Shown here piece after piece: positions 14,422 to 57,462 of a DNA stretch of 64,000 nt. The first letter of the stretch is position 1. Each line of letters opens with the position of its first letter. The position numbers and the translations under genes were made by a program. The stretch comes from Devosia sp. A16 (lineage in GTDB: Bacteria > Pseudomonadota > Alphaproteobacteria > Rhizobiales > Devosiaceae). The notes beneath the pieces are model-generated. The model searched no databases. It was not told the DNA's origin and was given only the letters and a program-made list of their open reading frames with translations. The stretch lies in the NCBI RefSeq assembly GCF_001402915.1, contig NZ_CP012945.1, forward strand, positions 124,001-188,000, in the 5' to 3' direction.

Positions 14422-14429
14422 GGGTGACC

Positions 14430-14563
14430 GAGAGAGACGGCCCCCTCCCATCCTCCCCCACAAGGGGGGAGGTGCCGCATCGAGTGTCGGGCACGGGTGA
14501 GCCACAAGCTCGACTCTTCACCTCTCCCCTTGTGGGGGAGGCCGGGAGGGGGCCGTCTCTCTC
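14430..14563. repeat. GC-rich palindromic repeat, GAGACGG-CCCC subtype
   Basis: Perfect outer arms GAGAGAGACGGCC and GGCCGTCTCTCTC enclose CCTCCCATCCTCCCCC, GGAGGTGCCGCATCGAGTG and the matching reverse arm. The same subtype, with the same GGTGCCGCATCGAGTGT core, is at 38160-38287 and in the opposite orientation at 57335-57462. It sits between the two genes of the RND operon. Confidence 0.88.
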
Positions 14564-14587
14564 AGTATGCCACCTGGGAGGAACCGC

Positions 14588-28060: not shown

Positions 28061-28092
28061 TGCAGCGAGTGTCGTTACGTCCGGTGCGGGTT

Positions 28093-28201
28093 GCCCCCCA
28101 CCCCTGTCCCCTCCCCCCAAACAGGGGGAGAGAGACGCTCGCGCGAGCCGCAGTGTTTTGGTCTCCCTCCCCCCTTGGGGGGAGGGAACAGGGGTGGGGG
28201 G
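28093..28201. repeat. Palindromic repeat between urtE and ureD
   Basis: CCCCCACCCCTGTCCC and GAACAGGGGTGGGGG are the outer arms, CTCCCTCCCCCC and GGGGGGAGGG the inner ones. The outer arms match 11326-11374. It ends about 29 bases before the ureD start. Confidence 0.8.
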
Positions 28202-28229
28202 CTGCAGGCGCCGGTCTCCGAGGCGGGCC

Positions 28230-32190: not shown

Positions 32191-33900
<1,710 letters not shown>

Positions 33901-34942: not shown

Positions 34943-34997
34943 CCGGCTAAGCTGGCGGTGAAGGTTGGGAAGCCTCGAAGACCTGGTAGTTTTGACG

Positions 34998-35471
34998 ATG
35001 CCGCAAACCTTTCGCGCGGTTGGCTATTTGCCGACAGGCGCAGCCGGTACCCCCTTCGATCTCGCTATCCTGCTGCATGACCAGCGCCGCGTGCGCCGCC
35101 GCATGCTGCCCCTGGTGCACGGCGATAGCGTGCTGGTGGATTTTCCCGAGCCCATTACTCTCGCCGACCGCTCGCTGCTCGCGCTGGACGACGGGCGGCT
35201 GATTGAGATCATTGCCGGCGAAGAGCCGCTCTACGAAGTTCGCGGCCGCGACCCCATCCACCTGATGCGGCTCTGCTGGCACCTGGGCAACCGCCACCTC
35301 AAGACCCAGATCGAGGCGGATCGCGTGCTGATCCTGCGCGACCACGTGATCCGCGACATGCTGCGCGGCCTGGGCGCCATCGTCTCCGATGTTTCCGAGC
35401 CCTTTCATCCCGAAGAGGGGGCTTACTCGCACAGCCATGGCGAGCCCACCCACGCGCTGCTCAATCGATGA
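34998..35471 (+). CDS. ureE: Urease accessory protein UreE
   Basis: A 157-residue nickel metallochaperone. The N-terminal part has RRMLPLVHGDSVLVDFPEP, and the C-terminal domain has the family motif LCWHLGNRHLKTQIE with the metal-binding His. The C-terminal tail is short with only three His (HSHGEPTH), not the long poly-His of some species. The start could also be TTG 34965; ATG 34998 fits the family length better. The stop overlaps ureF (ATGA at 35468-35471). Confidence 0.92.
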   Translation: MPQTFRAVGYLPTGAAGTPFDLAILLHDQRRVRRRMLPLVHGDSVLVDFPEPITLADRSLLALDDGRLIEIIAGEEPLYEVRGRDPIHLMRLCWHLGNRHLKTQIEADRVLILRDHVIRDMLRGLGAIVSDVSEPFHPEEGAYSHSHGEPTHALLNR

Positions 35472-36268
35472 CTAACCCGGCCGCCCTGCAGAAACTCGTC
35501 ACCTGGCTGTCGCCCGCCTTCCCGGTGGGTGCGTTTGCGTGGTCGGCGGGGCTTGAGACGGCGATTGCAGATCGTCGCGTAACCGACCCCGAACGCTTGC
35601 AGAACTGGATCGAAGGCGCGCTGACGCATGGCGGGGTTCGCACTGATGCGATCTTGCTGGCCGAGGCTTGGCGGGCGGGCGGAGAGTCTGCGTTTGCGGC
35701 CTCCCCCCTCCCAACCTCCCCCACAAGGGGGGAGGTACCCGCTGGTGATGGGGGCACTATTCCGCCACAAGCACCGGCAGACACCTCCCCCCTTGTGGGG
35801 GAGGCCGGGAGGGGGGAGGCCACACGCACCAGCCTCTCCGACCTCGCCGACCTCAGCCAGGCCCTCACCGCCAGCCGCGAGCGTTGGATGGAGACCACCA
35901 TCACCGGCGACAACTACGTGCTGGCAACGAAGCACTGGCCTACCGGCGTCCTTGCCCTGCTCCCCGAGCCCTGCCCCTACCCCATCGCCGTCGGCGCCAT
36001 CGCCGCGGCGCACGACATCGATCTCCTCGACACCCTGCTCGCCTGGCTCACCGCCACGGTGCACGGCCAGATTTCGGTGGCGGTGCGTCTCGTGCCGCTT
36101 GGCCAGTCCGACGGCCTTCGCGTCCTCGCGGCGCTCGAGCCGGGCGTTGCGGCGCTGGCAGCATCCGCGGCCGCCTCGACTCTTGCCGACCTCGGCGCAA
36201 TCGCCTACGCCGCCGATATCGCGCAGATGCGCCACGAGACGCTGGAACCGAGGATTTTCCGTTCATGA
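35468..36268 (+). CDS. ureF: Urease accessory protein UreF with in-frame repeat insertion
   Basis: A 266-residue UreF, about 40 longer than usual. Residues 1-76 ([39 protein letters not shown]) and from about 119 on ([31 protein letters not shown]) follow the family. Between them, residues about 77-118 are translated from a palindromic repeat and read [12 protein letters not shown] ... [11 protein letters not shown]. UreF acts with UreD and UreG to load nickel. The frame is intact across the insertion. It is coupled to ureE and to the DUF3995 gene by ATGA overlaps. Confidence 0.93.
35698..35821. repeat. Palindromic repeat inserted within ureF
   Basis: GGCCTCCCCCCTCCC and GGGAGGGGGGAGGCC are exact outer inverted arms; inner arms are ACCTCCCCCACAAGGGGGGAGGT and ACCTCCCCCCTTGTGGGGGAGG. 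The design is that of the elements at 14430-14563 and 38160-38287, but the sequence lies wholly inside a coding region and keeps its frame. Confidence 0.88.
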
Positions 36269-36693
36269 GCATGCTGATTGCCGCCCTGATCTTCGTCGTG
36301 CTGCTGGCGGTGGCCATTGCCCACTTGCTGTGGTCGATCGGCAGCCGCTGGCCGATCCGCGATCCGGAGTTGCTGGCGCGCACCGTCGTCGGCAAGCCGG
36401 GCGTCACCCGAGTGCCGAAATTGGCCTCCTTCGTCATCTCGCTGCTGGTGCTCGCCGCGGGCGTCCTTGCCCTGTCGCTGGCCGATCACACTGCCGGTGG
36501 CTGGTGGCTGACGCTGATCGGCGTCCTGCTCGCCGCGCTGTTTCTCGGCCGCGGCGCCGTCGGCTACACGGAACGCTGGCGCGCCACCTTCTCGGCCGAA
36601 CCGTTCGCAACGCTCGACCGCAAGAACTACTCGCCGATTTCGATCGCGCTGGGTGTAGGCTATCTCCTGCTCGTCATCATGAGGCTGATATGA
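36265..36693 (+). CDS. DUF3995 small membrane protein
   Basis: A 142-residue membrane protein with four hydrophobic helices (about 3-24, 53-72, 78-97, 122-140). Motifs [13 protein letters not shown] and [18 protein letters not shown] fit the DUF3995 family, which is often found near metabolic operons but has no known role. It starts at ATG 36265, overlapping the ureF stop, and its own stop overlaps the ureG start, so it is firmly in the urease operon. A nickel- or urea-related function is possible but unproven. Confidence 0.78.
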
Positions 36694-37322
36694 AATCGCT
36701 TAATGGTCCCCTGCGCGTCGGCATCGGCGGTCCTGTCGGTTCCGGCAAGACCACGCTGTGCGAAATGCTTCTCAAGGCAATGCGCGACCGCTATTCGATG
36801 GCGGTGGTCACCAACGACATCTACACCAAGGAAGACGCGCTGATCCTCAACCGGGTGCAGGCGATCTCCGAGGATCGCATCGTCGGGGTCGAGACCGGCG
36901 GCTGTCCGCACACCGCCATTCGTGAGGATGCCTCGCTGAACCTCGCGGCCATCGCCGATCTCAACCGCAAGTTCCCCGACCTCGACATCATCCTGATCGA
37001 GTCCGGCGGTGACAACCTCGCCGCTACCTTCTCGCCCGACCTCGCCGACATCACGCTCTATGTCATCTCGGTGGCGCAGGGCGAAAAGATCCCGCGCAAG
37101 GGCGGGCCGGCCATCACCCGCTCCGACCTGCTGATCGTCACCCACACCGACATCGCTCAATACGTGAACGCCAGCCTCGAGGTCATGGAGGCCGATACGC
37201 GGCGCGTGCGCGAAGGCCGCCCCTACGTCTTCGCCGACCTGCTGCGCCGCGAGAACCTCGACCAGATCATCGGTTTCATCGAGCAGCAGGGCGGGCTGGT
37301 GGCCGCCGAAGCGGCGGAGTAG
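36690..37322 (+). CDS. ureG: Urease accessory GTPase UreG
   Basis: A 210-residue SIMIBI-class GTPase. The P-loop is [11 protein letters not shown] (about 13-23), the nickel-binding CPH motif is in [11 protein letters not shown], and [13 protein letters not shown] and THTDIAQYV follow the family. UreG uses GTP to drive nickel transfer to urease with UreD and UreF. The ATG at 36690 overlaps the DUF3995 stop. The end of the operon is followed by a palindromic repeat. Confidence 0.97.
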
Positions 37323-37354
37323 CGCAGGAATCGGCCCCATCGGTGCCCAATCGC

Positions 37355-37493
37355 CCCCTCGCCCCTCTGGGGAGAGGGCTGGGGTGAGGGGCGCCAAGCG
37401 CACCGATACGAGACGTTGCTCACACTGCGCCGACATTCCAACTGGCGTACTTGGCGCCCCTCACCCTGACCCTCTCCCCAGAGGGGCGAGGGG
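37355..37493. repeat. Palindromic repeat after ureG
   Basis: CCCTCGCCCCTCTGGGGAGAGGG and CCCTCTCCCCAGAGGGGCGAGGG are the arms, with an inner TGAGGGGCGCCAAG / CTTGGCGCCCCTCA pair. The remaining 199 bases up to 37692 hold no convincing gene. Confidence 0.8.
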
Positions 37494-37692
37494 ACGCACT
37501 TTGCACCGGCAATGCCAGTAGCCCCCTAAGGCGCCCCTACCCGCCAGCCATGGGTAACGAGGTTCATGCCCTTGAGGCGATGCGCCAAGAGGCCCGGGGG
37601 ATCAGTCGCCGGCAGCTTGACGCGCAGCGACCGGCAAGACAAGCAAGTGGCCTGGAAGGCTGCAAGTTCCGACGGAGGGCGTTCTGGTAGAT

Positions 37693-38160
37693 TTGGCACC
37701 CCCGGATTTCGTGGCTTTGCGGCGCGCCCTCGCCATGCCGCTCCCCGCCGTGTCCTGGCCCGACGCAGTCCACCTGGCGGCGTTCGACGTCGCCGACGTC
37801 AAAGCCATCCACACCCTGCTGCAGCACGCTTACGCCAACGGCTTCGGCAGCGTCGCGCCTGACTGGCTGGATTGGTGGGAAGCGCTGCGCGCCGACAGCG
37901 AGTTCGACCCGGCCCTGTGCTTCGTCGCCAAGGCCGAGGGCGAGGTGATCGGCTTCTGCCTCTGCTGGACCTCGAGCTTCGTCAAGGACCTGGTGGTCGC
38001 ACCGGAGTGGCAGGGGCGCGGGCTCGGTGCCGCGCTGCTGGCGACGGCCATGGCTGCGCTGCGGGAACGCGGCGCGGGCGAGGTGAGGCTGAAGGTGGTG
38101 ACGGGCAACGGCGGGGCAAGGCGGCTGTATGCGCGGATGGGGTTCGAAGAGGTCGACTGA
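37693..38160 (+). CDS. GNAT-family N-acetyltransferase
   Basis: A 155-residue acetyltransferase. The acetyl-CoA site is clear in DLVVAPEWQGRGLGAALL (about 99-116), followed by VVTGNGGARRLYARMGF. The N-terminal 20 residues are uncertain: the TTG at 37693 is the first start in the frame, and ATG 37735 is an alternative. The acceptor molecule is unknown. The stop codon touches the next palindromic repeat. Confidence 0.82.
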   Translation: MAPPDFVALRRALAMPLPAVSWPDAVHLAAFDVADVKAIHTLLQHAYANGFGSVAPDWLDWWEALRADSEFDPALCFVAKAEGEVIGFCLCWTSSFVKDLVVAPEWQGRGLGAALLATAMAALRERGAGEVRLKVVTGNGGARRLYARMGFEEVD

Positions 38161-38287
38161 GAGAGACGCCCCCCTCCCATCCTCCCCCATAAAGGGGGAG
38201 GTGCCGCATCGAGTGTTTGGCACGATCGAAGACCGAGCCTCGACTCTTCACCTCCCCTTTATGGGGGAGGCCGGGAGGGGGCCGTCT
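38160..38287. repeat. GC-rich palindromic repeat, GAGACG-CCCC subtype
   Basis: GAGAGAGACGCCCCCCTCCC at one end and GGGAGGGGGCCGTCTGATTC at the other enclose GGTGCCGCATCGAGTGT and CTCGACTCTTCACCTCC, matching 14430-14563 closely. It lies between the convergent acetyltransferase and glgX genes. Confidence 0.85.
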
Positions 38288-38302
38288 GATTCAGTCAGCG
38301 CC

Positions 38303-49609: not shown

Positions 49610-49762
49610 TGTCGCAATCCAGCAGCATGGCGATGTATTCCCCTCTAGAACACCACGCTTGCATGGAATGACTGCTCTGTGAAGCCCCGTTGAGAACGGT
49701 TCTAAGGCACGCTGCCTAAACTGTAGACGATTATTGCTCGTTCCGCCTGTACCGGCCGACGG

Positions 49763-49867
49763 CTCCCCTCCCCCTTGAGGGGAGGGGCTGGGGGTGGGGG
49801 TGGTGAGGCGGGCGAGGTGCTGACTTCACCACCCCCTCCCTCAATCCCTCCCCACAAGGGGGAGGGA
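49763..49867. repeat. Palindromic repeat upstream of glgP
   Basis: CTCCCCTCCCCCTTGAGGGGAGG and CCCTCCCCACAAGGGGGAGGG bracket a GGTGGTGAGGC / GCTGACTTCACCACC inner pair. The 331-base gap 49610-49940 otherwise shows only a plain A+T-richer patch near 49680-49740 that may hold the glgP promoter. Confidence 0.75.
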
Positions 49868-49940
49868 AGCGATCGCATCGCGCGTCAAACAAGGCGGCGG
49901 GCATCACAGAGCCCCCGATTGAGGTCAGTTGCCGCTCGCC

Positions 49941-57334: not shown

Positions 57335-57462
57335 GAGACGGCCCCCTCCCGGCCTCCCCCATGAAGGGGGAGGTGAAGAGTAGAGGCCCCGTCTTCGATC
57401 GAGCCAAACGCGCCGGCAGGGCACCTCCCCCTTCATGGGGGAGGATGGGAGGGGGCCGTCTC
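57335..57462. repeat. GC-rich palindromic repeat, GAGACGGCCCC subtype, reverse orientation
   Basis: GAGACGGCCCCCTCCC and GGGAGGGGGCCGTCTC are exact arms. The core is the reverse of that in 14430-14563 and 38160-38287 (GGTGAAGAGTAGAGG first, GGGCACCTCC last). It lies between convergent LysE and phosphomannomutase genes. Confidence 0.87.

Follow-up and report, generated by a model that had tools for sequence, protein, structure and literature searches.

According to PMC10969869, Rickettsia palindromic elements (RPEs) are palindromes of about 150 bp that are repeated through the genome, nearly half of them lying within genes and some of them in frame in unrelated protein genes. PMC3733652 places REPs of both the GTAG and the CGTC type within genes in several species, where dimers or groups of them code for 20-30 amino acids, and reports that two Xanthomonas species carry distinct REPs at almost the same position in recB. 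In a 64,000-nucleotide stretch of the Devosia sp. A16 genome (the window), an inverted repeat had been predicted to lie in frame within ureF, with the Rickettsia elements named as the known precedent; this precedent is correct but too narrow, given the REPs inside genes of several species in PMC3733652. The ureF insert resembles RPEs in being a palindrome in frame in a conserved protein gene whose host protein is retained, and differs from them in occurring in another, free-living, genus. Location also differs: whereas nearly half of RPEs lie in genes by that account, a codon-usage scan placed 0 of 68 Devosia copies in frame, under a weak rule that missed the ureF copy too because its left flank window overlaps ureE.

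The family of the ureF element (family A) has the layout of a REPIN, i.e. two REP-like hairpins, inverted, with a variable spacer, and shares with REPINs and REP dimers a high copy number and a location mostly between tandem or convergent genes; unlike REPINs, its 68 copies show no conserved GTAG tag at the hairpin feet (by eye). A profile search for the RAYT domain (Y1_Tnp, PF01797) that was positive in 5 of 14 control genomes gave no matches in the source genome. CGTC REPs are defined in PMC3733652 by a CGTC tag, an 8-9-bp stem beginning with AT, a 4-5-nt loop and a CCA-like tail. By eye, the main subtype of family A has the end GAGACGG, the complement of which has CGTC on one strand, and the ureF subtype is without it; the Devosia stem begins with CC where the REP stem begins with AT, a comparison made by eye with the written definition. 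Family A is MITE-like in being short, with inverted ends, and apparently non-autonomous. It differs in that a search with PF01797, the one transposase profile used, gave no parent transposon, and in showing no general target-site duplication, direct repeats of at least 6 nt accompanying 4 of 68 copies against 4.6 expected. The Devosia family works in the manner of the in-gene RPEs and REPs already known. Among the papers listed on Devosia palindromes, UreF insertions and intragenic REPs or cobN, no title or abstract opening describes such inserts. On that basis three things look new: the genes involved, the retention of an insert throughout a clade with collapse and exchange of families at a single site, and the pairing of a near-neutral peptide with conserved arms.

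The predicted in-frame inverted repeat was borne out: its core lies exactly at the limits given in Table 1, and the ureF reading frame stays open across it. A repeat finder delimits the inverted repeat as 35695-35755 and 35764-35824, 84% complementary with 8 nt between, and the probable full element folds at -118.7 kcal/mol, whereas shuffled versions average -67.7 (z -11.6; 0 of 200 shuffles as stable). The earlier estimate of about 41 added residues matches the core; the net gain relative to insert-free homologues is larger, at 46 codons (266 aa against 220 aa). An Rfam scan of the window found no family overlapping the ureF element. Elsewhere in the ure neighbourhood, the same database matches the 5' ureB sRNA (RF02514) at 32344-32632 on the minus strand, antisense to ureC (112 bits, gathering 40).

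Table 1. Features of the ureF element and its neighbourhood in the window, with related inserts in other genes and genomes.
Feature	Position or genome	Strand	Basis or remark
ureE, UreE_C domain	34965-35471	+	profile; start codon per ORF tool
ureF with insert, 266 aa	35468-36268	+	PF01730, E 6.6e-28; fold match 4hi0_A
Probable full element, imperfect outer inverted ends	35689-35830 (142 nt)		boundary inferred by eye, A2 ends
Palindromic element core, family A subtype A2	35698-35821 (124 nt)		repeat finding, arm comparison, family copies
Left arm, including short hairpin CCTCCCCC-ACAAG-GGGGGAGG	35698-35736		repeat comparison
Inter-arm spacer	35737-35782		evolves approximately as neutral peptide
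Right arm, inverted copy of left arm	35783-35821		repeat comparison
ureG, cobW/HypB/UreG domain	36690-37322	+	profile search
Family A copy	14427-14566		intergenic by codon score: flanks in different frames/opposite strands
Family A copy	38155-38296		intergenic by codon score: flanks in different frames/opposite strands
Family A copy	57335-57462		intergenic by codon score: flanks in different frames/opposite strands
Family B copy (second palindrome family; that of the Root413D1 ureF site)	28081-28214		repeat finding
DUF2207 family-A elements	L189:901-999; L210:1929-2066		
CobN loop, family A	G011		
CobN loop, family D	source genome, G012		
CobN loop, D-like remnant	G013		
CobN loop, third family	G017		
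CobN loop, fourth family	G002, G018		
CobN loop, family B	G007		
CobN loop, B-like	G024		other genus within family
CobN loop, short	G015, G009, G020, G006, G004		
CobN loop, different long stretch	G010		

The host protein is identified as UreF (PF01730) by both profile and fold, the AlphaFold model (mean pLDDT 84, 44 sequences as input) matching H. pylori UreF (4hi0_A) with a TM score of 0.86 by target in a comparison that returned scores only. In this model, helices 56-75 and 110-132 flank the insert, which is predicted as coil with block pLDDT of 54-69. The suggestion that it occupies a tolerated loop is supported by this low-confidence coil between two model helices and by the purifying selection on the rest of UreF, and on the model the insert seems to be tolerated as a floppy loop of the protein. 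The same purifying selection suggests that UreF is still functional in the species that carry inserts, and their urease is presumably active.

That the same kind of repeat is intergenic elsewhere in the window was also confirmed, three further family-A copies lying between genes by codon score. In the 5.03-Mb genome, the arm pattern (up to 3 mismatches) has 102 matches on each strand and the reversed pattern 0, which implies about 100 family-A elements; 68 were located with their flanks, from the window and 74 fetched stretches, each a pair of inverted hairpin units with a variable spacer between. Mean identity between these copies is 0.93 in the arms and 0.66 in the spacers (same-length pairs). 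The flanking genes are, by codon score, tandem for 23 copies, convergent for 21, divergent for 1 and unscored for 23, and the codon-usage scan placed five elements in the same frame with a stop (L139, L140, L145, L149, L175). By eye, the ends of the 68 copies are mostly GAGACGGCCCCCT, the commonest end type being CTGACTGA..GAGACGG; seven copies, including that in ureF, differ from this at one end or at both and make up subtype A2, in which CC or GGCC precedes (A/T)CCCCC. In 56 of the 68 the arms mismatch asymmetrically, one having AT where the other has GG; the ureF copy has AA and GG, and AA is present in one other copy of the 68. GANTC sites lie near 47 of the 68 elements as a raw count, and a link of family A to the CIR-type elements of Caulobacter is possible. 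A looser family-A pattern is found in 15 of the 16 other Devosia genomes, with 3 to 205 matches when both strands are counted, although some or all of the matches listed for G013 and G018 end differently (CGCT..) and possibly do not belong to family A; the family-B pattern has matches in 15 of 17 Devosia genomes, the source genome included. More long inverted repeats, with different arm sequences, lie at 37352-37496 and 49757-49875, and the content of the window suggests that it holds three or more palindrome families.

The ureF site was then compared across the window and 79 relative loci (18 of the 79 being left out), with 62 loci put through insert measurement; 61 were measurable in both UreF halves and L107 on one side only. 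The same 46 residues occur in no palindrome-free UreF of this sample: 54 of the 61 loci are empty and the other seven hold a palindrome or a remnant of one. All seven carriers are Devosia, i.e. the window, L051, L052, L053 (D. insulae), L054 (ZB163), L055 (Root413D1) and L058 (66-14), and they are monophyletic in a tree of UreE, UreF and UreG with support of 0.998 on DNA and 0.914 on protein, falling to 0.835 and 0.577, respectively, on a shorter alignment of UreE and the UreF N-terminus. The sister of the carrier clade, L097, is insert-free. In L058 the insert has collapsed, being 28 codons shorter but in frame, with part of the left arm fused to part of the right. At L055, nested beside L053 with support of 0.999, the site is filled by a family B palindrome (CCCCACCCCTGTCCCC...) in a different reading frame, flanked on both sides by sequence that by eye resembles old A2 ends. 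The arm variant CCCAACC is common to the window, L051, L053 and L058, and is present in 1 of 67 other copies of the source genome. The ureF spacer has 0.75 identity to that of L051, against 0.54 for the best same-length copy compared from its own genome, which fits descent; this signal is weak for L053 (0.60) and L052 (0.56). A separate anomaly near the same loop is seen in Devosia algicola (L102:1501-2161), whose ureF is one base off the other insert-free loci (gap -2 versus -3), through either a frameshift or a sequencing error.

An eighth insert, of family A and in the same loop and frame, is found at L107, a Devosia MAG contig that ends inside the element. L107 is placed outside the carrier clade, with L057 on DNA (0.944) and with L105 on protein (0.934), and its element begins four codons earlier, nearer the helix. 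The 38 nt that it has exactly in common with L051 and L053 make transfer as likely as independent insertion. A search without a positive control did not find the second half of this ureF in the 85%-complete MAG.

Selection was compared in ten pairs of five carriers, the pairs not being independent. The UreF flanks have pS of 0.26-0.51 and pN of 0.03-0.13, whilst the spacer peptide, with 11-13 synonymous sites per pair, has pN of 0.18-0.52 and pS of 0.30-0.64, giving pN/pS of 0.44 to 1.74 (about 1 in most pairs, below 0.5 in 2 of 10). In the arms pS is 0-0.18 in the six pairs without L054 and 0.09-0.27 in those with it, L054 itself having a divergent left arm (pN 0.32). One-sided tests of synonymous change in arms versus flanks give p of 0.00015 to 0.015 in 7 of the 10 pairs. 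With counting confined to fourfold sites that end in G or C, 0 or 1 of 11-17 are changed per pair in the arms against 22-37% in the flanks, with p of 0.003 to 0.04 over all ten (non-independent) pairs. UreF is thus maintained and the spacer peptide evolves almost neutrally, whilst the arms are conserved as DNA, the L054 left arm excepted; a near-neutral spacer beside arms nearly fixed at synonymous sites indicates that it is the DNA, not the protein, that is conserved. Relative to the window, the two arms of L052 show matching changes (GAC/GTC, GGCT/AGCC) and L054 has the ACAA stretch changed in both; these paired changes suggest templated correction between the arms, with selection on the hairpin or exchange with genomic copies as possible alternatives. 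That most copies keep the AT/GG asymmetry counts against arm-to-arm correction being complete, and the retention in ureF of the genome-rare AA variant makes plain overwriting by the most frequent genomic copy less likely.

A search for other coding-region copies had been proposed with the original prediction; following the open frames with family-A matches in relatives (20 fetched, 6 translated and 14 judged by codon score) led to cobN (PF02514). Four of the six translated frames are readable genes with inserts (L209, L216 and L221 in cobN; L210 in a DUF2207 gene), and that of L213 yielded nothing. Seventeen CobN proteins were aligned, the loop being taken as the interval between TVEIL..GY and ..GPTNA; the family names in Table 1, and the assignments of G007 and G024, were judged by eye, and the G014 contig does not span the loop. 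A repeat finder run on seven cobN loci detected inverted repeats at the loop in all six that cover it (L224, L225, L226, L227, L238, L243). The source-genome cobN itself holds an in-frame palindrome of a non-A family at L225:2090-2225 (G000:C1:2952996-2953131); family D has 65 matches in this genome over both strands. Two further CobN loops have inserts or remnants. The G010 loop (L229) contains the peptide VVRQAHDEEL...PPPEPVEGG, which resembles the translation of another repeat type. In the source genome and in G001, the apparent start codon of a DUF2207 gene is separated from the signal peptide by a family-A element, which in L189 has an 8-nt direct repeat on its flanks. The source genome accordingly offers two clear coding-region cases, ureF and cobN, and a possible third in DUF2207. 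A family-A element in an open frame is also seen on the N-terminal side of a long gene in L219 (G012:C14:31800-35800), at about 1933-2094 on the minus strand.

The account that we consider likely is a single ancestral, in-frame insertion of a non-autonomous palindrome into the ureF loop, after which UreF kept working, the peptide drifted and the arms stayed near-fixed. A short element of REPIN-like layout, moved by some enzyme, would have entered ureF once, in the ancestor of the Devosia clade; single entry is most likely because the seven carriers form one clade. Its length would have fitted the frame, with the 46 extra codons landing in the loop between two helices, and this combination of frame and position may be why UreF remained functional and selection did not remove the insert. 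Thereafter the spacer peptide would have drifted approximately as neutral filler, whilst the arms, as in other copies of the family, were presumably held near-fixed by arm-to-arm or copy-to-copy correction or by selection on the hairpin. The same pattern in CobN of the same genus counts in favour of this account. Counting against it are the lack of a PF01797 match in the source genome, the shortage of target-site duplications, the divergent left arm of L054, the two pairs with spacer pN/pS below 0.5, and the inserts of L055 and L107.

It is unlikely that the insert is instead kept for an effect in RNA or DNA, e.g. as an ure-transcript hairpin adjusting ureF/ureG expression or as a protein-binding site. 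Such an effect could explain the conservation of the arms at synonymous sites, the very stable fold and the retention of the asymmetric mismatch in most copies, albeit as AA and GG in ureF; however, the arms are also alike across the other genomic copies, and no ureF-specific role is therefore needed for their conservation, and the long hairpin is mostly lost in L058 and absent from the sister L097. We give little credence to the loop being a hotspot entered separately in each species. The different family at L055, the shifted start of the element in L107, outside the clade, and the re-occupation of CobN loops all point in that direction, and the inserts of L055 and L107 mean that one single event cannot account for every insert in the UreF loop; nevertheless, the carriers are monophyletic, four of them share an arm variant that is rare in the source genome, the window and L051 share spacer sequence, and for L107 the stretch in common with L051 and L053 makes transfer an equal candidate.

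That the inserted peptide is itself functional in UreF, e.g. by making a novel contact to UreD, UreG or urease, and was retained for that reason, we regard as improbable: an insert, whether full, swapped or collapsed, is indeed present in 7 of 7 clade members, but the spacer shows pN/pS near 1 in most pairs, L058 does without 28 of the inserted codons, L055 has an unrelated insert read in another frame, and the model returns a low-confidence coil. An assembly error or chance GC-rich inverted repeat has virtually no claim. GC-rich repeats are indeed hard to assemble, and L051, L052, L058 and L107 come from metagenomes; but separate assemblies of several species have inserts at this site, among them three that carry no MAG label (D. 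insulae DS-56, ZB163 and Root413D1), and chance is ruled out by the reversed-pattern control (0 against 204 matches).

Repeat insertions into conserved protein genes are commonly viewed as single frozen events. Here one clade and its neighbours provide a series at one site, which may be empty, filled by a full or a collapsed insert, or taken over by a different family, and cobN behaves likewise; such a series allows measurement of how proteins absorb mobile DNA, and separates selection on the peptide, of which little was detected, from conservation of the DNA palindrome, which is strong in most carriers. Tentatively, the loop between helices 56-75 and 110-132 of UreF and at least one loop of CobN may be long-lived landing sites in Devosia, at which unrelated palindrome families swap in frame, partly via recombination between similar GC-rich arms, with DNA-level correction keeping the arms uniform; mobile palindromes would then be a lasting source of loop variation in working enzymes. 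The findings also bring a free-living, culturable genus into a phenomenon best known from Rickettsia.
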